46,509 nt of DNA. It comes from Parcubacteria group bacterium GW2011_GWA2_43_11 (GTDB taxonomy: Bacteria; Patescibacteriota; Minisyncoccia; Phycocordibacterales; UBA12088). A model generated the notes under the pieces. That model saw nothing but the letters and a program-made list of their open reading frames with translations. It did no database searches and was not told the origin of the DNA. Both the position numbers and the translations under genes were made by a program. This document shows positions 3,182 through 44,295 of this stretch, one piece after another. The stretch's first letter is position 1; each line of letters begins with the position of its first letter. The DNA is taken from NCBI GenBank assembly GCA_000998805.1, contig LCFC01000001.1:1-46509 (forward strand). The letters are read 5' to 3'.

Positions 3182-4861
3182 TTATTCTTTACCCCAAGGG
3201 CGTAAGAACAAGCGCGCAAAACGAAGCTCTTCAAAAGAGTATTTGTTCTTCAGCGTTATACGTACCGGTGACAAATTCCATGTTTTCTCCTTGGCAAACG
3301 CTCGTGCAATCGACGCAAACTTTGCGTCAGAAAGTTTTGAATCGTCCCGTACATGCTCTAAGTGACTTTTGGTAATACTTCCCTTTTCAAGCAGTTTTTC
3401 GATATGCGAGAGTATTGTTTCAGGTGTAAATTCTCGTTTTTTCACTATCGCGTCTAGTGATGCACCCTCAATTAGCAAACGCTTGGTTTTCTCATAGGTA
3501 GATATGTTTTCTTTTGCCGTGAGCTTTTTTGTTGGTTTTGTGTGGTCCGGCTCATGTCCGCCTACGCGAAAAATAAATTCTTTTGAGACTTCTGAAATCC
3601 TCTCCACGGGAGTTTTCTGAAGTCTCAATTGTGTACGTGCGGAGTGTGCAAGAAAACGTTCGTTTGCCTCTGCAACATCCGGATGACGTGCGTACGCCCA
3701 ATCGTTGATACCTTCAAGATAAAGTCCCGTAAATGTTTTTACCCTTGAGAGTGCTACGTATCCTTGACCGCCGACAAAGGTTTTTGTCAGGTCGATGTAC
3801 GCAGCATCGAGCGTCAGACCTTGACTCTTATGCACTGTTACTGCCCACGCAAGCCTCAAAGGTATTTGAGTAACCTCGGCGAGGACTTTCTCACCATCTT
3901 CAATCTGCCAACTCGCGGGCTCAGTTTCTATGGTTTCTCCACTGTGTGTTTTAACAAGTGGATTTTGTGAAGTAAATCCTGTTACAGTTCCAAGTGTGCC
4001 GTTTACGTACAAGCCTTGGGGGTGATTTTTGACAAACATGACGACTGCCCCCTTCTTGAGAGTAAGTTTTTCAGGGACTAGTAATCCTTTTTTAAGCATC
4101 TCCACACGCTTCTTACTTCCCTTCCCTTTCATTGAAAATATGCGCGAGGGGGTCGAAAGTGCCTCAAGGCGTTTCGTGTTGAGTTCGTCGACATTTGCAT
4201 TGTGTGTATATAAATGTGGAATGTCTTGAGGAACGGTGTGTCCGATTCTTTTTTCGACGAGTGCTCGCAGAGGTCTTGTTACATTTCCCTCACGTATCGC
4301 ATTGAGGAGTGCCAAAAGGTCGGTGTCATTTTGTCGGTACTGGTCCGTAAGGTAGCACGTGTGTAGTGCAAGCTCGTTCCAAGTTTTACTTTGAAATGCA
4401 TACTGAATCTTTTCTGACCCCCTTGTCACCGGGGGAAGTTGAAAAAAATCACCACACAAGATTACTTGCATCCCTCCAAAGGGCTCGTACGTCTGAAGTC
4501 CCGCCTGAATGGACTGGTTGACCATGGTAAGCGTTTTAGCACTCAACATGGACACTTCGTCAATTATAAGCACATGCGTGCGTTGAAAGCGTTTTACCAG
4601 TTTTTCGTTTTGCTCTATTCGATCTAGGTCGTAGGGAGAGAGTTCATCTTTAATACCAATTCCTGACCATGCGTGAATAGTTTGTCCGCCAATATGCGTG
4701 GCCGCAATACCAGTAGAGGCAGTGACTGCTGGCTCAATTCCTCGCTGACGAAGCCACTGTATGTATCTGTTGAGGACGTACGTCTTACCACTTCCCGCGG
4801 CACCAGTAAGAAACACGTTCTTTCCCATCGTGAGCACCTTGAAAGCTTCGTCTTGCGTCAT
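3182..4861 (-). CDS. Pif1/RecD-like AAA helicase with C-terminal helix-turn-helix-like region
   Basis: Walker A GAAGSGKTYVLNRYI, LIIDEVSMLS, QFxLPPV-type motif FFQLPPVTRG, C-terminal AVTVHKSQGLTLDAAYIDL / YVALSRVKT. Start at MTQDEAFKVL. Confidence 0.9.
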   Translation of the reverse strand: MTQDEAFKVLTMGKNVFLTGAAGSGKTYVLNRYIQWLRQRGIEPAVTASTGIAATHIGGQTIHAWSGIGIKDELSPYDLDRIEQNEKLVKRFQRTHVLIIDEVSMLSAKTLTMVNQSIQAGLQTYEPFGGMQVILCGDFFQLPPVTRGSEKIQYAFQSKTWNELALHTCYLTDQYRQNDTDLLALLNAIREGNVTRPLRALVEKRIGHTVPQDIPHLYTHNANVDELNTKRLEALSTPSRIFSMKGKGSKKRVEMLKKGLLVPEKLTLKKGAVVMFVKNHPQGLYVNGTLGTVTGFTSQNPLVKTHSGETIETEPASWQIEDGEKVLAEVTQIPLRLAWAVTVHKSQGLTLDAAYIDLTKTFVGGQGYVALSRVKTFTGLYLEGINDWAYARHPDVAEANERFLAHSARTQLRLQKTPVERISEVSKEFIFRVGGHEPDHTKPTKKLTAKENISTYEKTKRLLIEGASLDAIVKKREFTPETILSHIEKLLEKGSITKSHLEHVRDDSKLSDAKFASIARAFAKEKTWNLSPVRITLKNKYSFEELRFARLFLRPWGKE

Positions 4862-4982
4862 ACACAATAGCTTACCGCGAAGAGCGCTCTTGTGAAAGTT
4901 AAAAGTTGAAAGTTCAAAGTACTTTCGCCTTTGGCAAACACACAAGTCCGCATTTGCGGACTTGTGAACTTTCAACTCGCTT

Positions 4983-20175: not shown

Positions 20176-21567
20176 ATGGCTTTATCACCAACACATGTAC
20201 GCGTGCCACCTCAATCTCTTGAGGCTGAGAAAGCACTTCTTGGGGCGATAATGATAAAACCTGAGTGCATGTACGACATATCGGACGTGGTTTCTGCCGA
20301 CAGCTTCTATGTTGACAAGCATCGACTTATTTATAAAGCGATGCGTGATTTGTTTAGTAAGAGTGAGCCGATAGATGTACTTTCCGTATCAGCACGTCTC
20401 AAAGCCAATAAGGCTATTGAACGCATCGGCGGTGCGAGTTACTTAACGGAGCTTGTAAATACCGTACCTGCAACGGCGAATGCGCATCACTATGGAGATT
20501 TGGTGCAAAGGGCTGCAACACTTCGATCCCTTATTGATGCTGCGGAGTATATCGCTGAGCTTGGTTTTGATGAAGGAAACGACCTTGAAGAAGTACTTGA
20601 TGCAGCTGAGAAGAGGATGTATGAAATTACCAACGCTCCAGGTCTTCACAAATTTGTCTCCATGCAAGAGTCACTTGGGGAGGCTTGGGAAAGAATTGAC
20701 CACCTTCACAACTCAACTGATGAGATGAGGGGTATTCCGACTGGGTACAAAGATCTAGATAACCTACTTGCTGGTCTTCAAAAATCAGATTTGATAATTC
20801 TTGCTGCACGACCTTCAATGGGTAAAACAGCCCTCGCACTTGATATCGCCAGACAGACAGCGGTCAATCATAATACCGCAGTAGGTATATTCTCTCTTGA
20901 AATGAGTAGTCAGCAGTTGGTAGATCGTATGCTCGCATCCCAAGCAAGGGTAGATGCGTGGAAACTAAGAACAGGAAAGTTGACCACAGATGATGAATTT
21001 GCAAAAATACGCGAAGCTATCGATAAACTTTCTACGGCGCCTATTTACATTGATGACAAGCCTGCAAACAATATTCTAGGTATGCGTTCGGTAGCAAGGA
21101 GGCTGAAGCGAGAGCATGGACTTGGACTTATTATAGTTGACTATCTCCAAATGATGGCGCCTACGGGCAAGCACAGCGGAGATTCTTTGGTGCAACAAGT
21201 TACAGAAATTTCGCGTTCGCTAAAATCACTAGCACGTGAGCTTGAAGTACCGGTACTGGCACTCTCACAGCTCTCTCGTGCGGTGGAACAGCGACGTGGC
21301 AAACCAAGGCTCTCTGACCTTCGTGATTCAGGAAGTATTGAGCAGGATGCTGACGTCGTTATGTTTATTCATCGAGAGGACAAAATGAATGACACTTCAG
21401 ACAGACCAAATATTGCAGAGATTATGGTTGAAAAACACAGAAATGGCCCCGTGGGTAAAATTGATCTCTATTTTGATGAAAAGAAAGCAAGTTTTCTCTC
21501 AATAGAAAGATCTAATTATGGATCAGTGGATGAAAAAGTAGGTGCTGAAGCTGATGAAGATTGGTAG
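20176..21567 (+). CDS. dnaB: Replicative DNA helicase DnaB
   Basis: PPQSLEAEKALLGAIMI, LIILAARPSMGKTALALDIARQ, GLIIVDYLQMM, LSRAVEQR...LSDLRDSGSIEQDADVVMFIHRED. Confidence 0.97.
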   Translation: MALSPTHVRVPPQSLEAEKALLGAIMIKPECMYDISDVVSADSFYVDKHRLIYKAMRDLFSKSEPIDVLSVSARLKANKAIERIGGASYLTELVNTVPATANAHHYGDLVQRAATLRSLIDAAEYIAELGFDEGNDLEEVLDAAEKRMYEITNAPGLHKFVSMQESLGEAWERIDHLHNSTDEMRGIPTGYKDLDNLLAGLQKSDLIILAARPSMGKTALALDIARQTAVNHNTAVGIFSLEMSSQQLVDRMLASQARVDAWKLRTGKLTTDDEFAKIREAIDKLSTAPIYIDDKPANNILGMRSVARRLKREHGLGLIIVDYLQMMAPTGKHSGDSLVQQVTEISRSLKSLARELEVPVLALSQLSRAVEQRRGKPRLSDLRDSGSIEQDADVVMFIHREDKMNDTSDRPNIAEIMVEKHRNGPVGKIDLYFDEKKASFLSIERSNYGSVDEKVGAEADEDW

Positions 21568-22647: not shown

Positions 22648-24477
22648 TTAATCGCCTTTGGCGAAAATTTTCACAGTATCGCGAACTTTTTCTTCATTGA
22701 AACCGCGTAAAATACCTGTGTAGTATGCAAAGAGTTGCAAGGGTATGTTTGCGAGAATTGGAGTTAAACAATGCTTGGTATCAGGAATATAAAAGACATC
22801 GTCGGCAAGTACTTTGACGTTCATGTTTCCTTCAGTTGCGATAGCAAGAATACTACCGTGTAATTTTTTGAGCTCCTCAACATCTTTGTGCATGGCACTA
22901 TATGTAGAATCACTCGGCATAATGGCAATGATTGGAAATATCTCGTTTATCATCGCTATAGGACCATGTTTTATTTCCCCACCAGGGAAACCTTCTGCGT
23001 GTACATAGGATACCTTTTTGAGCTTGAGAGCCCCCTCGTATGCGGTGGCTATGTTGTATTCCCGACCCATAAAGAGGAAGTCATCATACCCAAGGTACTT
23101 TTCTGCAAGCTCTTTAATCTTGTCTCTTTTTGAAAGGATGGATCGAGCTTTGTCAGGAAGGCGTTGTATTTCCACAACTAACTCCGCACCTTGTGCTTGC
23201 GAAACACCTCGTAATCTACCTAAAAACAAGGCAATCAGTGTAAGTATCTCCAGTTGACTCACGAACCCTTTCGTTGACGTGATACCTATTTCCGGTCCTG
23301 CGTGGTTAAATACGCCAGTATCAATTTCTTTTGCTATGGTGCTACCTACGACGTTAACTATACCAAGGGTGAGCATGCCGACTCGTTTTGCTTGTTTAAG
23401 GGCAGTAATAATATCAGCTGTTTCTCCAGATTGTGAAATTGCTAAAAATACGGTCTTGTTGGGCGTGGCGAGTATCGGTCTGTTACAAAACTCTGATCCA
23501 TACTCCACATCAACTCGTATACCTGCGTGATCCTCAATAAGCAGTTTTCCGATGAGTCCAGCATAGTATGACGAACCGCATCCAACAATAACGATGTGGT
23601 CAATCTCTTGCAGTTCACGTGCGTAGTCTTCAAGTCCTTTAAGTTTTGTATTTCCTTCATTAATAACAATTCTTCCACGCGCTGCGTTTTCAAGTGCTGA
23701 AGGTATTTCAAGTATTTCCTTAATCATGCTGTGGGTGTGCTTGGAAGCAGTTTGAAACTCCTCATATTCTTTCTGAAGCAGTTTAGGCTTACGGGTCATC
23801 TTGCGGTGATCTGTTGAGTATATAGAGTACCCCTCTTTGTTAACGACCGCGTACTCACCATCCTTTAAATAAACTACATTGCTCGTGTGTCGACGCATCG
23901 GGGTAATATCTGAAGCCATAATATACTCTCCTTCCTTTACCCCTATTGCCATAGGGCTTCCAAGTGAGGCTAGTACAATTGTTTCTGGATCATCGGTAGC
24001 GATGACTGCTATACCGTACGACCCTTGAACCTGTGCAAGTGCGGATGATACTGCGTCAGATAGTTTTTTTTCAACCTCGTACTCCTTTGCTATTAAGTGT
24101 GCTAGTACTTCTGAGTCAGTGTCGGATGTAAAAACATTTCCTTTTTTTTCTAACACGTCACGCAACTCTTGATAGTTTTCTATCATCCCATTATGAACCA
24201 ACCAAATTTTTTGTGTTGGATCTGTGTGTGGGTGGGTGTTTTTTTGTGAGGGTAGTCCATGTGTTGCCCACCGTGTATGTGCAATACCTGTCGTACCAAG
24301 GAGAGAGTTCGGTAAAGAGTCAGCAAGATTTTGAACTGTCCCGACAGTACGAAATGCACCATATCCAGAAATATACATTCCCACCGAGTCGTACCCTCGA
24401 TATTCGAGTTCTCGCAGGCCATCTAAAAGAATCGAACTTGCAGGTTTATTTCCTGTATATGCAACAATGCCACACAT
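22648..24477 (-). CDS. glmS: Glutamine-fructose-6-phosphate aminotransferase (isomerizing)
   Basis: MCGIVAYTGNKPASSILLDGLRELEYRGYDSVG, AHTRWATHG, SQSGETADIITALK. Confidence 0.97.
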   Translation of the reverse strand: MCGIVAYTGNKPASSILLDGLRELEYRGYDSVGMYISGYGAFRTVGTVQNLADSLPNSLLGTTGIAHTRWATHGLPSQKNTHPHTDPTQKIWLVHNGMIENYQELRDVLEKKGNVFTSDTDSEVLAHLIAKEYEVEKKLSDAVSSALAQVQGSYGIAVIATDDPETIVLASLGSPMAIGVKEGEYIMASDITPMRRHTSNVVYLKDGEYAVVNKEGYSIYSTDHRKMTRKPKLLQKEYEEFQTASKHTHSMIKEILEIPSALENAARGRIVINEGNTKLKGLEDYARELQEIDHIVIVGCGSSYYAGLIGKLLIEDHAGIRVDVEYGSEFCNRPILATPNKTVFLAISQSGETADIITALKQAKRVGMLTLGIVNVVGSTIAKEIDTGVFNHAGPEIGITSTKGFVSQLEILTLIALFLGRLRGVSQAQGAELVVEIQRLPDKARSILSKRDKIKELAEKYLGYDDFLFMGREYNIATAYEGALKLKKVSYVHAEGFPGGEIKHGPIAMINEIFPIIAIMPSDSTYSAMHKDVEELKKLHGSILAIATEGNMNVKVLADDVFYIPDTKHCLTPILANIPLQLFAYYTGILRGFNEEKVRDTVKIFAKGD

Positions 24478-26518: not shown

Positions 26519-29218
26519 CTACGAAGGCAGTTTCTCCGCAACCAGCGTTTTTTGGAAATCCCGCTCAAACAAAAAGAACTTCATGAGCTCAATCGTGGCG
26601 AGATTCATAATACCCACACCAACGAGAAGGAGTTTTTCAAAAGAAGTAAGTGGAGTGATAGAAAGAAGTGTCATGAGCGGGTTCCATGTAAGCGCCAGCA
26701 ATAACAGAGATATACTGGTCAAGAGTGCAAAAAGTAAATATTTGTTTGAAAACACATTAATCTTCCAGACAGGGGTGTCGAGTGATTTGAGTGAAAAACT
26801 AAAGAAGATGGCGTCAAGAGAGAGTGCGACAAACATCACTGTACGCATTTCTTCCTCAGGAAGGCCAATACTGTTGAGCCAGTAGTACAAGCCGACGAGC
26901 AGTAGTCCTGTGGTAAGTGATACTAGGATGATAAGTTTACGAAGTTCCTTGGTTAGAATGTTTTTGGAAGCGGCACTGCGAGGATCGCGCTTCATGGCGT
27001 GCGGGTCTCTGCCCTCAAAAGCAAAAGAAAAACTCATAAGCCCTTCCTCAACAATGTTTGCCCAGAGTATTTGTGTTGGCACGAGGGGGAGAGGTCCTCC
27101 TATTGCCAATGCACCTCCGATAACAAAAATTTCACTGAAAGAAGTAGAGAGAAGGTAGGCAATAATTTTCTTGAGGTTGTCTATGATGCGTCGTCCTTCT
27201 TCAATTGCTGAGACAATAATAGAAAAACTATTGTCGATTAATACAAGGTCACTCGCTTCCTTTGCCACTTCTGTACCAGAGCCTACCGCTACACCTATAC
27301 TTGCGGCGCGTAGAGCTGGTGCGTCGTTAATACCGTCACCAGTCATGGCGACGACTTCTCCACTACTCTTCAAAACCTGAGCTATTCTAAGTTTGTGAGC
27401 CGGTGTAGCACGTGCAATGACACGAACTCTTTGCAGTTTTGTATACAAACCAGCATCATCCAATTCTTCAATCTCATCTCCTCTGATAACAAGCTCATCT
27501 CCAGGCTGGGTAATACCCACTTGTTGTGCGATGTAGTGTGCAGTCTCGGGATTGTCACCAGTGAGCATGATTACCTGTGCACCTGCTTCTTTTACTTCAG
27601 CTATTGCTTTGGCAACATCAGTACGAATAGGATCTTCAAAAGCTATGAATCCAGCAAACACAATGCCATCAAGTAAGTTTTGTGCATCAGTTGTTTCTTC
27701 AGGAATAGAATCAATACTGACATCTCGATATGCAAGACAAATAAGACGCTTACCCTCGAGGGTTCGTTCTCTGAGAACATCTGAGAGACGCTTTCGCTCG
27801 TGGGGAGTCACTTTTACCCTTTTTCCATCCACTCTGATGTACTGCGATGCCTCGAGTAGCTTTTCTGGTTCACCACTGAGAATCAAACGGTTTGTTTTCT
27901 TTGCTGGGTTTTTATGGAGTGAGGCCCCAAAGCGACGTGTCGAAGTGAACTGTAAGTAGTCGAGTCTGGGGTAGGCTTCCAAAACCTTCTCTTGTGAAAT
28001 ACCTGCTTCAAGTGCTGAAAGTACGACAGCTTTTTCTATTGGTCTACCATGTACGACGAGCTGTGCAGATGCGTCAGTAGTCTCCTCAATAAACGCGTCA
28101 CTCATAAGTGTTGCTTGTTCAAGAAGAAACTTATTATCGTCGTCAGGACCTTCTCTATGATCTCGGATACCCGAATAGCTGTGTAGCGATGCAAGCTTCA
28201 TACGAGCTTCAGTCAGAGTTCCTGTCTTGTCAGTCAAGATAACAGTGGTAGCACCCAATGTCTCAGCGGCCAGCAGGTTTCGGACTAACCCGCCACGTTT
28301 CAAAATAGACTCCATGCCCACGGCAAGTACGACGGTCACCGCAGCAGGAAGTCCAGAGGGTACTGTGGCGACGGCAGTTGCAATAGCAACAAGGAGCATG
28401 TCGAGAAGGTCGCGTTGTTGTATGAAGCCGATGAATAAGATACACGCCAGAGCTATAACGACCACATAGGTCAAAAAACGTGTTATGTTTTTAATATTTT
28501 TTTGTAGTGGCGTAGTTTGTTCTGAGATAGTTTGAAGTGACAGAGCAATTTTTCCTATTTCTGTTTTTTCTCCTGTAGCCACCACGACACCTCTCCCGTG
28601 GCCGGATTCAATAAGGGTCCCCATCCAGAGCATGTTGGTTTGCTCGGCTAGTGGTGCGTGTAGTGCTATCTGATCTTTAGACTTGGAGACAGCAAGCCAC
28701 TCGCCTGTGAGAGCTGCTTCGTTTACCTTCAAGTCTTTTTCCTCCACAATCCGAATATCCGCAGGAATAAGGTACCCACCCTGCAGTGCGACTATATCTC
28801 CTGGTACTAGATTCTCAGCGAGTATGTTGAGTTTTTTTCCTTCACGAAAGACAAGTGCATGTCGTTCTTGAGAAGTGTTTAGTTTCTGAAATGCCTTACT
28901 GGCGCGCTCTTCCTGTAGCGTTCCGATAATCACATTAATAATGACGGCAATAAAAATTACGAGCGAGTCGATATATTCTTCAAGTAACAGTGTCACCATC
29001 CCGGCACCGATGAGGATATAACTCAACGAACTCTTGAATTGTAATAGTACTTTGGCAAAAATACCTGTTTCTTTTGACCCTATTAGGACATTTTTTCCAT
29101 AGAGCGCCAACCGTCTATCCACCTCTTCGAGGGTGAGTCCGTTCTCAAAATCAACAGCAAGAAGTCTTCTAACCTCGTCTGTCGACATACTTTCCCATGC
29201 CTTTTGTGAAAAATCCAT
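26519..29218 (-). CDS. Cation-transporting P-type ATPase (PacL/P2-type-like)
   Basis: DKTGTLTEARM, TGEWLAVSKS, MLTGDNPETAHYIAQQVGI, VAMTGDGINDAPALRAASIGVAVG. Confidence 0.95.
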   Translation of the reverse strand: MDFSQKAWESMSTDEVRRLLAVDFENGLTLEEVDRRLALYGKNVLIGSKETGIFAKVLLQFKSSLSYILIGAGMVTLLLEEYIDSLVIFIAVIINVIIGTLQEERASKAFQKLNTSQERHALVFREGKKLNILAENLVPGDIVALQGGYLIPADIRIVEEKDLKVNEAALTGEWLAVSKSKDQIALHAPLAEQTNMLWMGTLIESGHGRGVVVATGEKTEIGKIALSLQTISEQTTPLQKNIKNITRFLTYVVVIALACILFIGFIQQRDLLDMLLVAIATAVATVPSGLPAAVTVVLAVGMESILKRGGLVRNLLAAETLGATTVILTDKTGTLTEARMKLASLHSYSGIRDHREGPDDDNKFLLEQATLMSDAFIEETTDASAQLVVHGRPIEKAVVLSALEAGISQEKVLEAYPRLDYLQFTSTRRFGASLHKNPAKKTNRLILSGEPEKLLEASQYIRVDGKRVKVTPHERKRLSDVLRERTLEGKRLICLAYRDVSIDSIPEETTDAQNLLDGIVFAGFIAFEDPIRTDVAKAIAEVKEAGAQVIMLTGDNPETAHYIAQQVGITQPGDELVIRGDEIEELDDAGLYTKLQRVRVIARATPAHKLRIAQVLKSSGEVVAMTGDGINDAPALRAASIGVAVGSGTEVAKEASDLVLIDNSFSIIVSAIEEGRRIIDNLKKIIAYLLSTSFSEIFVIGGALAIGGPLPLVPTQILWANIVEEGLMSFSFAFEGRDPHAMKRDPRSAASKNILTKELRKLIILVSLTTGLLLVGLYYWLNSIGLPEEEMRTVMFVALSLDAIFFSFSLKSLDTPVWKINVFSNKYLLFALLTSISLLLLALTWNPLMTLLSITPLTSFEKLLLVGVGIMNLATIELMKFFLFERDFQKTLVAEKLPS

Positions 29219-36955: not shown

Positions 36956-37027
36956 TATTAACCAGTATTGGTTCGTTTTAACTTACTGTTTTGGGCTGTA
37001 CTAAACAATCCTAAAGGAGAAAACCAG

Positions 37028-37660
37028 ATGGAAAAAAAATCCGCACTCACTATCTCTACGGTAAACCCTGAAACTCAGAAGAGTGACGACCTCATCGCTA
37101 CAGCACGTGCCGCTGTGAGACACCTCAGCACTCTGTGCACGAAAGATGAGTTTGGAAGATTTACTGGTCGCTTCCAAATCCATAAATCACTTGAAGAGGC
37201 GGGTTTCCATGTAGGATTGCCTCAGTTCATCCTCTTCCTGAAGTTCATGGGCCTTGTTCGAAAGCTTACCAAGGATGGAAATGGAACCTGCTATAAGTTT
37301 CTGGTGGTTGATCCGACCTTCTTTGACCTCCTTGTTACGGAAGAAAGTGTTTCAGCTGTTTTAAAGCAAATGTACGAACGGTTAGAGGTTCAAAGGCTGT
37401 GTAACGATTATCAGAGACGAATCGCCGACCTTGAGGAGCAATTGAAACGACAACCGAGTAATGAAGAATACCTCGGTACGTTGAACGAACATCTTGCAGA
37501 GGTCATTGCCCAGGTCGAACACCTGAGTGCTGAAAACTCGGAAAAGACTGCGAAAATCTCTGAGCTTGAGGCAGAGCTGAAATGCACCACAAAAGTTGAC
37601 GCAAAGCAGGTCACAGATGAACTGATGGCTCGGTTCCGGCAGACGCAATCTAAGAACTAA
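37028..37660 (+). CDS. Hypothetical protein: N-terminal winged-helix-like region, C-terminal coiled coil
   Basis: AAAGGAGAAAACCAG RBS before MEKKSAL; coiled coil QRRIADLEEQLKRQ...LSAENSEKTAKISELEAEL; terminator AACACCACC-tactcac-GGTGGTGTT follows. Confidence 0.65.
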   Translation: MEKKSALTISTVNPETQKSDDLIATARAAVRHLSTLCTKDEFGRFTGRFQIHKSLEEAGFHVGLPQFILFLKFMGLVRKLTKDGNGTCYKFLVVDPTFFDLLVTEESVSAVLKQMYERLEVQRLCNDYQRRIADLEEQLKRQPSNEEYLGTLNEHLAEVIAQVEHLSAENSEKTAKISELEAELKCTTKVDAKQVTDELMARFRQTQSKN

Positions 37661-37764
37661 GTAAATGTGACAACCAAAACCCTTCACAACACCACCTACT
37701 CACGGTGGTGTTTCTGTTTTATGAACTATCCGCGTCATACCAATATTAAAAATGGTATAGTCTC

Positions 37765-38069
37765 TAAAAAAATCACACCCCCCAAGGCATTGGAGGGTGG
37801 TTGGATGCGGCGAGGCCGTTATGTAGCTAGTCCGTGAAAGGAGAGCCTAGTACTGGCCGTGCATCCGGGCCGGCGGCGAAGGTGTCAGAACGTATTTTGC
37901 GGTTGCGGGCGCGGGGTACTTGCCGAATAATTTTGGGTGCCACTCTGGGCGATCGTGGATTGATGGACAATGGAGTTTTTCATCGTTGCACCTGTGATTG
38001 ATTTTTTGATCTGAAATAACGTTTTTGCCTCTCACTTCTACTACAAACAACTATATTTATACGTTTCTA
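37765..38069 (-). ncRNA. Predicted structured small transcript, copy A (contains sORF)
   Basis: Promoter TTGACA(38103-38098)-16-TATAGT(38081-38076). 3' terminator CACCCTCCAA-TGCC-TTGGGGGGTG then T7. Conserved with copy B. Confidence 0.7.
37885..37983 (-). CDS. 32-codon ORF in copy A: MKNSIVHQSTIAQSGTQNYSASTPRPQPQNTF
   Basis: AGGTG SD 5 nt before ATG; peptide aligns with the copy B sORF (13 of the first 26 residues identical). Confidence 0.5.
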   Translation of the reverse strand: MKNSIVHQSTIAQSGTQNYSASTPRPQPQNTF

Positions 38070-38203
38070 ATATACACTATATTCAGTTTATTTAATTTGT
38101 CAACTACCTGAGTGGTAGCTGAAGAAATTATGTAATATACTGCAAATACACACACCACTGTACGACATACTGATTACAGTATCTATATTTCTAATTAGTA
38201 AAG

Positions 38204-38503
38204 ATGAGAAAAGTTACCGTACATGACAAAATGTAAGTCGGGTATGTATATACATGTTCTGAACCCATAGGTAAAAACTTTGACCCAGAGTTCAAACCCA
38301 TGCTGACACCGAAAGAAATGCTTGAGCTTGGTGTGTTTGATGGCGTATACATGCGTGACTGTACAAGAGAAAAGGGTGGATATACCCAGATGATCCGTGA
38401 GGATGGTTTCAGTGGTATTGTCGCTACTACATGGGGAGACGGTTACCCGATGAAGATCAAAGACAGATACGTCGATGGAAAGCTTTTTCTCGGCACCTAG
38501 CAC
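38204..38503 (+). pseudogene. Small conserved-type ORF interrupted by in-frame TAA
   Basis: Same frame reads MRKVTVHDKM*VGYVYTCSEPIGKNFDPEFKPMLTPKEMLELGVFDGVYMRD...; TAA at 38234-38236 approx.; no start codon between the stop and Met38300. Confidence 0.5.
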
Positions 38504-38695
38504 AGGTCACAAAGAATTGTTGAAGTGGAGATGTGTTTTGTAGACGCAAGCAAAGGCAAACATTACTCCATTGGGCATATGACTCAAGAGAAATTTAAAA
38601 CTTTCCAGAATACTAGTAACAATACTAGTATTCAATTAACACAATACGTAATGCTGAATGCAAAACACCGCTTGAATGCAGTGTTTTGCTAAGAG

Positions 38696-40936
38696 CTACA
38701 AGTTCTTCCCTTCCTTATACGTCAAAGTCCGCATCTTTCGTCGTCTGCCAATAAGCACAACTCCCACACCTACAAGTGCGATGAGTATTCCCAGCATGTT
38801 TCCATATCGTACCCATACGGTTTGCTTCGGGTCAGTAAATGAAAGTGGGTGCGATGCCTCTTGCTTAAGTTTGATACCTGCAAGAGAATTTTCTTGTGCT
38901 AAGTATGAGAGTGTCTCCATCCCGAAAGCAATATTTTCTGGTGCCCCTTGTACATACTCGTCTGTAAGAAAGTCAGAATCACCTATCACGATAATGTGGG
39001 GTAGGTTTTTACCCGCCACATCCTCTGCGGGTTTTAGCAGTACACCAAGTAGTTGTTGACTTAAATTGTTTTGAGCAAAGGTACCTTGTGGGTCAAGCAC
39101 AAAGTTTTCTTTCTGTAGCCCTCCAAACGGTGATGTTTGTATAAGCGGGGTGCTTTGTAGTTGTTTTGCTGCAACAGTGTTGTCGTTGATAGACATACTG
39201 CTACCCCATGGAATAGTCACGTTTGTTAATTCTGAGCCCACAAACACGCCTTCTGTTACGAGTGCTCGAATATATGCTGGGTATGGAAGGAAGTATGTGA
39301 CACCACCACCTCCCATTTGTACCGTTTGGTTCGAGCGAAGATCATACGCCATGTCTTGATGTACTGTTACACCATACTCCTCAAGAAGTGTATCCGTACT
39401 GGTACTGTTTGGAAGCACCACCATGTACTGCGTATTTACTTCAAGGCCATCTACAAGGAACAAGGCATTCCTTCCAGAAGCGAGATAAGCACGCAACGAC
39501 TCTTCATGCAATGAGTCAAGTGGTCCTGTCGGCTTTGAAACGACAAGTGTGGTGACGTCCTCTCTAATAGTAGAGGTAGCTGAGTCAAGAACAATGTCTT
39601 CAATAATGAATTGCTTTCCCATCTCTTGTGCGAAGAGTGTGTAACCTTGTTTTGAAGATTTGCCACCCATATCAAGAAAACCGATTTTCTTTTTCTCTGT
39701 CTTAGTAAGCTCGCTAATAAAGCTCGTGAGTTGATACTCAAGGTCTGAAGTGTTCTGGATTAGTGGAATTGCCTTATGTTCTTCACCTACTCGTATTGCG
39801 ATTCCAAAGTACGCTTGCTTGACTTGAAATTCTCCGTTACCGGATATGTTGAACTGCACAGGTCGTACACCATTCTCTTGTGCCTCAGTGGCTACAGCCT
39901 CATCGGTTTCTGGATTTTTGTAGGTTATAGAGAGATTTGAACCACTATACGTGCCGTAATCTTTAAGAATATCTTTTACCGTCCGAGAAATTGGCTGGAA
40001 CTGCGCAGGAAGATTTGCAGACTCATACAACACGATTTCTACTTCACTTGGAATGTTTGCAAGTATATCTTTGGTTGAGTCTGTGAGGGTGTAGATGTTT
40101 CCTTCAGTCAGGTCTAGACGAAAGCTCGGGAAAAAAGCAAAGCCAGACGTTGCCACCAAGACCCCGAGTAGTACGAGCACAAGTGTTCTCTGCTGTAAAA
40201 CTTTTTTTGAATATCGACTGGTCCTTCTTGCAATGAGCTTCATGTGTCCCAGTTCCAAAAAAACAACAGTAAAAAGTATGAAGTACCACACATCACGTAT
40301 ATCAAGCACACCTCGTGCAATAGCTTCATAATGAGGAAGTACTGAGAGACGAGAAAAAATAGTACCGAGCCATGTGGGTAAGCTTATGGTTACAAGCTCA
40401 TACCCCATAATGATAAGCATAAAGGTACCAAGAACACTTACCATAAGTGCGGGAACTTGATTCCTAAAGAATGTTGAGACGGCAATACCAAGGCTCACAA
40501 GCGCACTTGCGAGCAGGACTCCTGCTACGTATTGTCCGAGGTAGACACCAAGGTCTAGTTCACCGAAAAATCGTAGTGTAACGGCTATTGGAAGGCTAGC
40601 GAGTAGTACCACCGCAGAGAAGACAAGTGCGGAAAGGTACTTTCCTAAAATGAGCTCTCGGTCGCGTATCGGGTGTGTGAGTAATATCTCAAGTGTTTCT
40701 TTGTTTGTTTCTTCTGCAATACTTCCCATAGTGATAGCGGGGATGAATAGCAGGAAAAACCATGGTAAAAGAGCAAAAAGACCTTGTACTGACGCTTGTC
40801 CAACCAAAAATACATTTTGGAAAAAAAGAAACTCCCATACTGCTATAAACACTCCGGCAATGATGTAGGTTGTTGGGTTGTAGAGGTACCCGCGCATTTC
40901 TTTTTTAAAAATTGCGCAAATGTTTCGTGTATCCAT
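38696..40936 (-). CDS. ABC-2 permease fused to GldG-like auxiliary domain
   Basis: N-terminal six-TM ABC-2 permease (IPAITMGSIAEETNKETLEILLTHPI), then GldG-like extracytoplasmic region, C-terminal TM; start at MDTRNIC. Confidence 0.85.
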   Translation of the reverse strand: MDTRNICAIFKKEMRGYLYNPTTYIIAGVFIAVWEFLFFQNVFLVGQASVQGLFALLPWFFLLFIPAITMGSIAEETNKETLEILLTHPIRDRELILGKYLSALVFSAVVLLASLPIAVTLRFFGELDLGVYLGQYVAGVLLASALVSLGIAVSTFFRNQVPALMVSVLGTFMLIIMGYELVTISLPTWLGTIFSRLSVLPHYEAIARGVLDIRDVWYFILFTVVFLELGHMKLIARRTSRYSKKVLQQRTLVLVLLGVLVATSGFAFFPSFRLDLTEGNIYTLTDSTKDILANIPSEVEIVLYESANLPAQFQPISRTVKDILKDYGTYSGSNLSITYKNPETDEAVATEAQENGVRPVQFNISGNGEFQVKQAYFGIAIRVGEEHKAIPLIQNTSDLEYQLTSFISELTKTEKKKIGFLDMGGKSSKQGYTLFAQEMGKQFIIEDIVLDSATSTIREDVTTLVVSKPTGPLDSLHEESLRAYLASGRNALFLVDGLEVNTQYMVVLPNSTSTDTLLEEYGVTVHQDMAYDLRSNQTVQMGGGGVTYFLPYPAYIRALVTEGVFVGSELTNVTIPWGSSMSINDNTVAAKQLQSTPLIQTSPFGGLQKENFVLDPQGTFAQNNLSQQLLGVLLKPAEDVAGKNLPHIIVIGDSDFLTDEYVQGAPENIAFGMETLSYLAQENSLAGIKLKQEASHPLSFTDPKQTVWVRYGNMLGILIALVGVGVVLIGRRRKMRTLTYKEGKNL

Positions 40937-40940
40937 AAGC

Positions 40941-41867
40941 CTAAGCTGTAGTAGTGAGTTTATAAAAGACATCCTCAAGTTTTACCTCTCGTTCTGCGCA
41001 TTTCCAGATAGTCCAAGCATGACTACCTGCAAGCTTCGAAAGTTCAGGGGGAAATGGAGTTCCAGAAGAAACAGTAACAGCAATAGTACTCTTCTTCCCC
41101 TCTTTCTTTGTTACCTCCACCTTTTCGACGCCAGAAATTTTTTGGAGAAGTTTTTCTACATCATCACCTTCCACTTCGATATCAAAGACCTGTTTTTTGT
41201 CGGTATTTTGTGAAAGCTCTCTGGTAGTACCTTGGGCGACAAGTGAGCCTTTTGAAATAATGTACAAATAGTCACACACTGCCTGCGCTTCCTGCATCAC
41301 ATGCGTACTCATAATAACCGTTCTATCTTTTGCCAAATCACGTATCAATGCACGAATATCAGTACGTTGGTTGGGGTCAAGCCCTTCTGTCGGTTCATCG
41401 AGAATAAGTACGTTTGGTCGATGTAAAAGTGCCATTGCAAGTCCTGTGCGTTGTTTATAACCCTTAGAGAGTTCTTTTACGGGTTTGTAAAATACCTCAT
41501 CAAGGTGCACCGAGTCCACCACAAAATCAAACGCATCGCGCCTTTTGCTTTTTGGAATGTTCTTAAGGTCAGCAGAAAAGTCGAGGGCTTCAGAAACAAG
41601 CATGTCTCCATAGAGTGGGTTTGTTTCCGGCATATACCCAATTTGTTTTTGTGCTTCTTGAGGGTGGGTGATAACCGACACATCGTCAACAGTTACTTCC
41701 CCACTGTCAGGTAGAAGGTACCCTGTCATTAAGCGCATGGAAGTCGTTTTACCCGCACCGTTTGGGCCTAGTAATCCGACCACAATTCCCTTCCCTATCT
41801 CAAATGACAGCTCTTTGACGGCGTACATGTCATTAAATTTTTTTGAAAGTTCTTTAACTTTTATCAT
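40941..41867 (-). CDS. ABC transporter ATP-binding protein (Gld/drug-export type)
   Basis: LGPNGAGKTTSMRLMTGYL, LSKGYKQRTGLAMALLHRPNVLILDEPTEGLDPNQ. Confidence 0.95.
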   Translation of the reverse strand: MIKVKELSKKFNDMYAVKELSFEIGKGIVVGLLGPNGAGKTTSMRLMTGYLLPDSGEVTVDDVSVITHPQEAQKQIGYMPETNPLYGDMLVSEALDFSADLKNIPKSKRRDAFDFVVDSVHLDEVFYKPVKELSKGYKQRTGLAMALLHRPNVLILDEPTEGLDPNQRTDIRALIRDLAKDRTVIMSTHVMQEAQAVCDYLYIISKGSLVAQGTTRELSQNTDKKQVFDIEVEGDDVEKLLQKISGVEKVEVTKKEGKKSTIAVTVSSGTPFPPELSKLAGSHAWTIWKCAEREVKLEDVFYKLTTTA

Positions 41868-41917
41868 AAGAATGCATAACTTTTACAAAACAACACCCAA
41901 TAATTTTTTACTTCGTA

Positions 41918-41947
41918 AGTATACAACAAAATAGTCGTTGTTTTCAA
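41918..41947 (-). promoter_or_regulatory. Putative promoter of the ABC operon
   Basis: TTGAAA - 18 bp - TATACT on the minus strand. Confidence 0.5.
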
Positions 41948-42026
41948 AACCAAAAGTCTCAGAAAAAATTACGGTATATGTCGAGTGTAATCAAAAAATA
42001 GGATTAAAAAACAAAAATGTGGTACA

Positions 42027-42334
42027 CAAAAAAATCACACCCCCAACGAATTGGGGGTGGATGGATGCGGCGTGGCCCGAACTGTATATGTGGCTAATCC
42101 TTTGAAGGAGAGCCTAAGTGGCCGTGCATCCGTGCCGGCGACGGGTGTTTCAGAAACTGCGGCGGCAAAAGATCGGCTCCGATGATGTTGCAATATAATT
42201 TAAATTACCACTTTGGGCGGTTTGAAACAGAAGCACACTGGAGTTTTTCATCGTTGCACCTTTTTTTGGATTTTTGATCGGGGAAAAACAGTTTTTGCCT
42301 TTTTTTTCTTCTACCTACTATATTAACAATTCTG
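42027..42334 (-). ncRNA. Predicted structured small transcript, copy B (contains sORF)
   Basis: Promoter TTGACA(42368-42363)-16-TATTGT(42346-42341). Terminator CACCCCCAA-TTCG-TTGGGGGTG then TGATTTTTTT. Confidence 0.72.
42150..42251 (-). CDS. 33-codon ORF in copy B: MKNSSVLLFQTAQSGNLNYIATSSEPIFCRRSF
   Basis: AAGGTG SD 5 nt before ATG; conserved MKNSxV / AQSGxxNYxA with copy A. Confidence 0.5.
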   Translation of the reverse strand: MKNSSVLLFQTAQSGNLNYIATSSEPIFCRRSF

Positions 42335-42724
42335 CTTACTACAATATTTCTATTTTTGAATTTGTCAAGGGTTGGAATACATTGACAAATGTCATATACG
42401 TGTCATAAAGAACTGTTCTTAATGCGTATAACAATGTATGCGGAAAGGAATATACATAGAAGTGCGATAGTGTACTGCCACCATGAAAATGAAAATGGCT
42501 GGAGTGCTGGTACAACAACGACTCGTGAGTTACCAGCATTGTCAATAACTTTGATGTACACAGATTTTTTTGTGCTCGTGTGTCTTAGGCATCGAATATG
42601 TTTTTAACGGAAACAGGGTGTAGATGTACTTTTTGTCACCTGTACACCTATAATTGGCAACTGGTATAGTGGTAGGATAAAACGCTTTGTGCGTTGCGTC
42701 TATTATTACTACGTATTATTTTGT

Positions 42725-43183
42725 ATGAAATATCTAAAACAAAACACACTTAAATTAAGTATTGCTTGCTTGGTACTTGTTGCAGGAATTTTTGCAATTC
42801 AAACAACTAACGCTTCACGCGGTGTTGGTTCCAATGAAGGTAATGTGCGCACTTATACGGACGATAGGGGTGAGTGGACAGAGACACCGACATCACTCAA
42901 TTTCACAAGTGACACTATGCAATGGGAGCTAGCTCCAACATCGTTTACTTACAATGACGGAGTGCATTCATGGGAAGAAACGCCCAACACCATCACTTAC
43001 AAGGGTCCAGCTGGTAGTTGGGAACAAACGCCTACCACACAGTCATTCTCAGACGGTGAAAAAAGTATGAATGAAACTCCTACCACGCGCTCATACACAG
43101 GAAATGATGAAGACCTTCTTGAAACACCGAACACGCGAGAGTATGAGGATGAGGAAGGTTCTTACGAAGCCCCTATTGATTAA
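42725..43183 (+). CDS. Secreted protein with seven ~16-residue tandem repeats
   Basis: Signal peptide MKYLKQNTLKLSIACLVLVAGIFAIQTTNA, then repeats of type xYxxxxGSWEETPTTx. Confidence 0.8.
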   Translation: MKYLKQNTLKLSIACLVLVAGIFAIQTTNASRGVGSNEGNVRTYTDDRGEWTETPTSLNFTSDTMQWELAPTSFTYNDGVHSWEETPNTITYKGPAGSWEQTPTTQSFSDGEKSMNETPTTRSYTGNDEDLLETPNTREYEDEEGSYEAPID

Positions 43184-43200
43184 TTGATACTATTGAAAAT

Positions 43201-44295
43201 ATGAAAAAAATTGTCCTCATTATATTTATTATCATTGTCGTTGTATTTGCATTTGTGTTAATGACAAATTCACAAGATTCTGTAAAGGATGCTATCAATG
43301 ATATTGCAGGCTCCGATACTCGTGTATTTTCCAAAACTTGTATCAACGAGTTTAATGAGTTGTATGCTGTGAACAAAGCTGATTTGACACAATGTAGCAG
43401 TGCTATTCGGGCTGGTTCATTTGCGGGCACCGAACCAACTCCAAAGGAAAATAATGTCGTGCTTATTTTTGATGCTTCCGGTTCTATGGCAGGCAAAGTT
43501 GGTGACGAGCGTAAAATAGACATGGCGAAAAAAGCGGTGGAAGATTTTGTTGCACAGTTGAGTGGCACAAACATACAGGTGAGTGTTGTGGTTTATGGCC
43601 ACAAAGGTGACAACACTGATGCAAACAAAAAAGCATCTTGTGCAGGTATAGAAGAGCTATACACGTTTGGTTCTGCGGACGGTGCTAAGATGGAGAGGAC
43701 ACTTAAAAGTTTTGAACCAACAGGATGGACTCCTATTGCGGATGCACTTGAAAAAGCATACGCAATTCTGAAACCATACAACACTGATACGTACAACAAC
43801 TCCATCGTTCTTATCTCCGATGGTATAGAAACATGTGATGGCGACCCTGTGGCGGTGGTACAAAGTATGGAAGAGCGCGGGTTGTCTGTAACGGCAAACG
43901 TTATTGGCTTTGATGTCGATGATGAGGCGGCCGAACAACTTAATGCTATTGCTGAAAACGGAAACGGATCATACTTTAGTGCTGCATCTCAATCTGAACT
44001 CGATTTTGCTCTCCAAAAACAAATTGACTTTATGAAAAAGTTTGATTACCGGATGCAACGAGTTTCTGAGAACTTGCAAGATATAAACAGTGCTACTGAA
44101 CTGCACTTCGGTTGTGTAAAAGCAATTGAAGTAGAGCGTGCAAAGATTCTTCTTGATATCTATGCTGATGAGAGGGTGACAAAAGAATGTGCAGAACAGG
44201 TTGATGCTATGTATTCCGAAAAATATGAAGAGGTACAACAATCTCTCTGGAACTCCTTTAATGCAATGGTGAAAGACTTCAAGCAAAAAAGTTAG
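43201..44295 (+). CDS. VWA-domain protein with N-terminal membrane anchor/signal
   Basis: MKKIVLIIFIIIVVVFAFVL; MIDAS-type DASGSMAGK; GWTPIADALEKAY; VLISDGIETCDGDP. Confidence 0.93.
   Translation: MKKIVLIIFIIIVVVFAFVLMTNSQDSVKDAINDIAGSDTRVFSKTCINEFNELYAVNKADLTQCSSAIRAGSFAGTEPTPKENNVVLIFDASGSMAGKVGDERKIDMAKKAVEDFVAQLSGTNIQVSVVVYGHKGDNTDANKKASCAGIEELYTFGSADGAKMERTLKSFEPTGWTPIADALEKAYAILKPYNTDTYNNSIVLISDGIETCDGDPVAVVQSMEERGLSVTANVIGFDVDDEAAEQLNAIAENGNGSYFSAASQSELDFALQKQIDFMKKFDYRMQRVSENLQDINSATELHFGCVKAIEVERAKILLDIYADERVTKECAEQVDAMYSEKYEEVQQSLWNSFNAMVKDFKQKS

Follow-up and report, generated by a model that had tools for sequence, protein, structure and literature searches.

Two units flanking an ABC transporter operon

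The window, a stretch of 46,509 nt from Parcubacteria group bacterium GW2011_GWA2_43_11 (contig LCFC01000001.1), carries two short related units, A and B, on the strand of an ABC transporter operon, with unit B located upstream and unit A downstream of the operon. The features at the locus are as follows (SD, Shine-Dalgarno motif):

38103-37766, minus strand: unit A as a whole, from the -35 box to the T-run
38076..38103, minus strand: unit A putative sigma-70-type promoter, TTGACA-16-TATAGT (from sequence; 11/12 promoter match)
38000..38030, minus strand: unit A A-rich leader blocks, AGGCAAAAAC at 38030-38021 and GATCAAAAAATC at 38011-38000 (alignment)
37972..37993, minus strand: unit A 22-nt initiation block AGGTGCAACGATGAAAAACTCC, with the SD AGGTG at 37993-37989 and the ATG at 37983-37981 (alignment)
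37885..37983, minus strand: unit A micro-ORF of 32 aa, MKNSIVHQSTIAQSGTQNYSASTPRPQPQNTF (ORF translation; no Pfam match)
37803..37866, minus strand: unit A three-tier stem, GGAUGC/GCAUCC, GGCC/GGCC and GGCU-UCC/GGA-AGCU (RNA folding with column-shuffle control)
37766..37799, minus strand: unit A putative intrinsic terminator with T7 tail (promoter/terminator scan)
42368-42028, minus strand: unit B as a whole, from the -35 box to the T-run
42341..42368, minus strand: unit B putative sigma-70-type promoter, TTGACA-16-TATTGT (from sequence; 10/12 promoter match)
42269..42300, minus strand: unit B A-rich leader blocks, AGGCAAAAAC at 42300-42291 and GATCAAAAATC at 42279-42269 (alignment)
42240..42261, minus strand: unit B 22-nt initiation block AGGTGCAACGATGAAAAACTCC, with the SD AGGTG at 42261-42257 and the ATG at 42251-42249 (alignment)
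42150..42251, minus strand: unit B micro-ORF of 33 aa, MKNSSVLLFQTAQSGNLNYIATSSEPIFCRRSF (ORF translation; no Pfam match and no phage match by tblastn)
42063..42131, minus strand: unit B three-tier stem, with the unit A pairing and one G-U to G-C change (folding with column-shuffle control)
42028..42059, minus strand: unit B putative intrinsic terminator with T7 tail, its pairs changed on both sides with the pairing kept (promoter/terminator scan)
38696..41867, minus strand: ABC-2/Gld-like transporter operon, as context and not part of the units (Pfam: ABC_tran; ABC2_membrane + DUF7088 + ABC_transp_aux)

A blastn search of the window with unit B returned unit B itself (42027-42380) and 37766-38103, the remainder being at background; the identity between the units was 69.7% (E 5.3e-33). 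The homology spans from the -35 TTGACA through the terminator T-run, and the flanks are unrelated: when the alignment was extended by 150-250 nt into either flank, the identity per 20 nt dropped to background right outside the promoter and the terminator. This confirmed the two real, diverged paralogous units with a common gene architecture first described in the earlier note, every sequence element it had quoted being found in both copies. Its statement that the interior had diverged while signals and structure were kept also held in alignment, blastn and folding, with promoter, initiation block, 3′ fold and terminator retained. The most conserved parts are the A-rich leader, the initiation block, the three-tier 3′ hairpin and the terminator, and the least conserved is the interior of the micro-ORF.

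No promoter match within 37200-42800 scores above those of the two units, although a third site equals unit B at 10/12. Downstream, both leaders contain the blocks AGGCAAAAAC and GATCAAAAA(A)TC, followed by AGGTGCAACGATGAAAAACTCC, which is identical at 22/22 positions, covers the SD, the ATG and the first codons, and matched only the two units in its own genome (at most 3 mismatches, both strands). By sequence signals, both copies thus have the own promoter and own terminator (for a transcript of roughly 50-500 nt) characteristic of a dual-function sRNA. Both copies would also allow the leader to pair with the terminator (AAAAATC with GATTTTT) and a post-stop ACACC to pair with the SD or a terminator arm, but these pairings are too short to count.

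An SD-like motif was found at only 2 of the 20 gene starts surveyed in the window (e.g., genes 26519-29218 and 22648-24477 on the minus strand and 20176-21567 on the plus strand), and several of the surveyed genes have a TANNNT box 7-15 nt upstream of the ATG. This suggests that leaderless or non-SD starts may be common in the window. Since SD-like motifs are that rare among the surveyed starts, the SD of units A and B stands out.

Micro-ORFs and the 3′ structure

Both micro-ORFs have the SD AGGTG placed 5 nt ahead of the ATG, their start and stop codons align between the units, and their lengths are one codon apart despite indels; they are likely to be translated. Evidence for selection on the ORF was weak, with P values of about 0.05-0.12, and the encoded peptide is under weak constraint. 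In particular, dN was ~0.38 vs. a dS of ~1.1 (NG86, 26 codons), and 13 residues were identical between the peptides vs. 9.7 expected (P 0.048), the signal losing significance upon removal of the four invariant codons at the start (P 0.115). The differences by codon position (6, 11 and 11) had no excess at the third position over the second, and an ORF of the same length was open by chance in ~21% of shuffles. Within the peptides, a segment AQSGxxNY is common to both, with synonymous changes. Their GRAVY values are -0.98 and -0.07, and neither has a hydrophobic stretch of the membrane type.

The 3′ domain is better conserved than the peptide in the alignment of the two units. Both have the series GGATGCACGGCC...AGGCTCTCC...GGCC...GCATCC, followed by the terminator hairpin with seven T, and the third tier pairs across the units as GGCU-UCC/GGA-AGC(U/C). 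In the two-sequence alignment, the consensus fold of this domain reached -21.7 kcal/mol vs. a shuffle mean of -9.8 (z -4.1), a value attained by none of the 1,000 column shuffles, and the 5′ part was unremarkable (z -1.5). Folded as single sequences, the full 300-nt RNAs did not outperform shuffles (z -0.9 and -1.3). Compensatory changes were confined to two pairs, both in the terminator. As almost all other pairs are invariant and only two sequences were compared, the result supports the 3′ fold as a structure that both copies can adopt, rather than as one proven by covariation.

The weak signal in the coding frame leads to the question of whether the ORF is a working part of the RNA at all. 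If the pair were purely non-coding sRNAs, the ORF would be incidental and the initiation block would be the place where a target mRNA or a protein makes contact. The poorly conserved ORF interior, the unconvincing frame-specific constraint and the appreciable probability of a chance-open ORF (about 0.21) agree with this; however, the well-placed SD, the aligned start and stop, the nearly equal lengths and the weak dN/dS signal speak against it, and it is considered an unlikely, albeit serious, alternative. At the other extreme, the units could be ordinary mRNAs for paralogous short secreted or regulatory peptides, whereby the 3′ stem would be a mere mRNA stabilizer. Both units do have the promoter, SD, ORF and terminator that this would demand, and the common AQSGxxNY segment fits as well. 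But conservation of the 3′ domain exceeds that of the peptide, and the peptides have neither a Pfam match nor a membrane-type stretch, nor peptide B a match in phages, which makes this explanation rather improbable.

Short ORFs in duplicate, each behind a long leader and followed by a 3′ structure, also recall duplicated type I loci such as zorO/orzO (PMC3919570), and the pair might represent a type I toxin-antitoxin-like locus in which the mRNA of a small peptide is held off by an antisense RNA. However, the peptides are not hydrophobic, no conserved plus-strand promoter reads over the leader, and a search of the genome (at most 3 mismatches) found no complement of the 22-nt block at a separate place, so this is very unlikely.

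Genomic context and distribution

The tie of the units to the ABC operon looks positional only. A congener (G002) has the operon at 90% amino acid identity within the same neighboring stretches and lacks both units; therefore, a functional tie is not supported. At the site of unit A, G002 passes from within the homologue of the neighboring gene straight into the ABC gene's end; since this junction looks like a deletion in G002, it says little on unit A as an insertion. At the site of unit B, about 860 bp of other sequence replaces about 2.5 kb. The earlier note had placed the units on both sides of an ABC exporter operon: the flanking position and the ABC transporter (by Pfam) were borne out, with "exporter" corrected to an ABC-2/Gld-like transporter. 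The least probable explanation takes the units as remnants of a miniature mobile element, or as an attenuator leader of the operon. It could draw on the position of both copies within stretches missing or replaced in G002 and on unit B lying upstream of the operon on its strand. Against it, only two copies were found in the genome, the homology ends at the gene signals without matching flanks, no gene on the same strand clearly follows directly after unit A, and the operon has its own promoter-like site (41947-41918) and occurs without a unit in G002.

Several neighboring genes are worth recording. The plus-strand gene 36968-37660, whose homologue in G002 is the one cut short by the junction with the ABC gene, has a putative promoter (TTGACAAAT...TATAAA) and starts at an internal ATG preceded by an SD (MEKKSALTIS...), in a style like that of the units. 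The predicted product of the gene 42689-43183 (plus strand) has 164 aa, a hydrophobic stretch near the N-terminus, repeats of the WE-TP-T--Y type and no Pfam match; the gene adjoins a VWA-domain gene (43201-44295). Farther away, 3182-4975 (minus strand) encodes a PIF1-like helicase whose C-terminal part contains an HTH_40 domain.

No third copy was found in the own genome by sequence or model searches; as the assembly is 77% complete, further copies could be absent from it. Searching by sequence and with a model of the 3′ domain (R1, built from the two sequences) added no member from 5 congeners, 4 others of the family or 118 relatives, nor from samples of 397 order, 384 class and 380 phylum genomes, these relative, order, class and phylum sets overlapping. 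There was also no member among GTDB contigs and viral contigs (exact patterns), phages or plasmids. For the large samples the filters were stricter and the models were built from two sequences, which means that relatives with strong divergence could have escaped these searches. The wider family in Patescibacteria that the earlier note had envisaged was not recovered, and its "functional family" survives in part: no homologues were found in the related genomes, yet the retention pattern still favors function. Since no other genome searched yielded them, the units are most reasonably regarded as a gene for a small RNA or a small protein that is specific to this lineage.

The matches that did arise were rejected. 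R1 matched three genomes (G084, 29.9 bits; G573, 24.1; G001, 18.7) essentially with the terminator hairpin alone, and in the first two the promoter, the SD-ATG block and the GGATGC stem were missing. In G084, the unit-like terminator (L018, 1501-1624) has a 25-codon lysine/arginine-rich ORF, MAKRRKAPAAKKVAPKRKTSSKRRK, just upstream, which was judged unrelated. A leader model (R2) gave many matches at 13-21 bits over 88 genomes, which are A-rich noise; the contexts inspected look like coding sequence and have no other unit elements. The pattern scans of viral contigs (9 matches for the initiation block, 11 for the 3′ stem) led to unrelated contexts or to no model match, and a single GTDB contig match lies in a high-GC Neoroseomonas sequence that looks unrelated and has no model match.

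Among known RNAs, no Rfam 15 family reached the gathering threshold for the units, with tRNA-Glu as the only family in the window; a lax Rfam scan of the region gave one meaningless 12-bit match. Moreover, ARAGORN found neither tRNA nor tmRNA in the units, and literature searches turned up no described match to them. This agrees with the earlier note, in which tmRNA, RNase P, SRP and 6S RNA were not recognized.

Proposed function and comparison with known systems

We interpret units A and B as diverged copies of one small gene that would be restricted to its lineage and transcribed on its own, most likely a dual-function sRNA or a small-protein mRNA, a reading to which we give an even chance. 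We infer transcription, translation and a target, and the steps would be as follows. An RNA of about 300 nt would be made from the strong sigma-70-type promoter, with an unstructured A-rich leader of ~90 nt, the SD-led ORF of 32-33 codons, the three-tier 3′ stem and the intrinsic terminator. The ORF would probably be translated, the leader and the SD recruiting ribosomes or a trans partner, whereas the 3′ stem and the terminator would protect the RNA and may act via base pairing. Being conserved, the initiation region and the structured 3′ end are probably functional. An Hfq-dependent mode is unlikely: a search of all six genomes of the genus did not detect Hfq, whereas the five control genomes gave a response. 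A more specific version is tentative: a lineage-specific dual-function RNA family, in a bacterium with a reduced genome and undetected Hfq, may have its start region and 3′ stem as working parts and the peptide as a variable passenger, and the role of this peptide may differ between the paralogues.

If transcribed, the units would make a well-delimited candidate for a regulatory RNA, or a dual-function one, in a bacterium with a reduced genome in which Hfq is undetected, and the pair would allow a natural contrast to be drawn between the constrained parts (initiation block, 3′ stem) and the free one (peptide). As a two-member orphan, its general importance is limited as it stands.

By the tests run, the units match no known family and are most like a known kind of gene. 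As in type I toxin mRNAs (hok, ldr and zor, with duplicated loci in PMC3919570), they are duplicated and have a short ORF, a leader and a 3′ structure, but their peptides are not hydrophobic and neither the promoter scan nor the search for the 22-nt complement found an antisense partner. They resemble tmRNA in their length of ~300 nt, in having a short ORF and in the structure of the 3′ end; however, they end in a terminator after a short stem and have no tRNA-like fold, in line with the negative ARAGORN and Rfam results. Dual-function sRNAs include SgrS/SgrT and RNAIII/hld. Another is VcdRP of Vibrio cholerae, which encodes the 29-aa VcdP (PMC8672173). Although no sequence relation of the units to these three was found and Hfq is undetected in their genus, they are like them in combining a short RNA predicted to be independently transcribed with a micro-ORF of ~30 codons and an intrinsic terminator.
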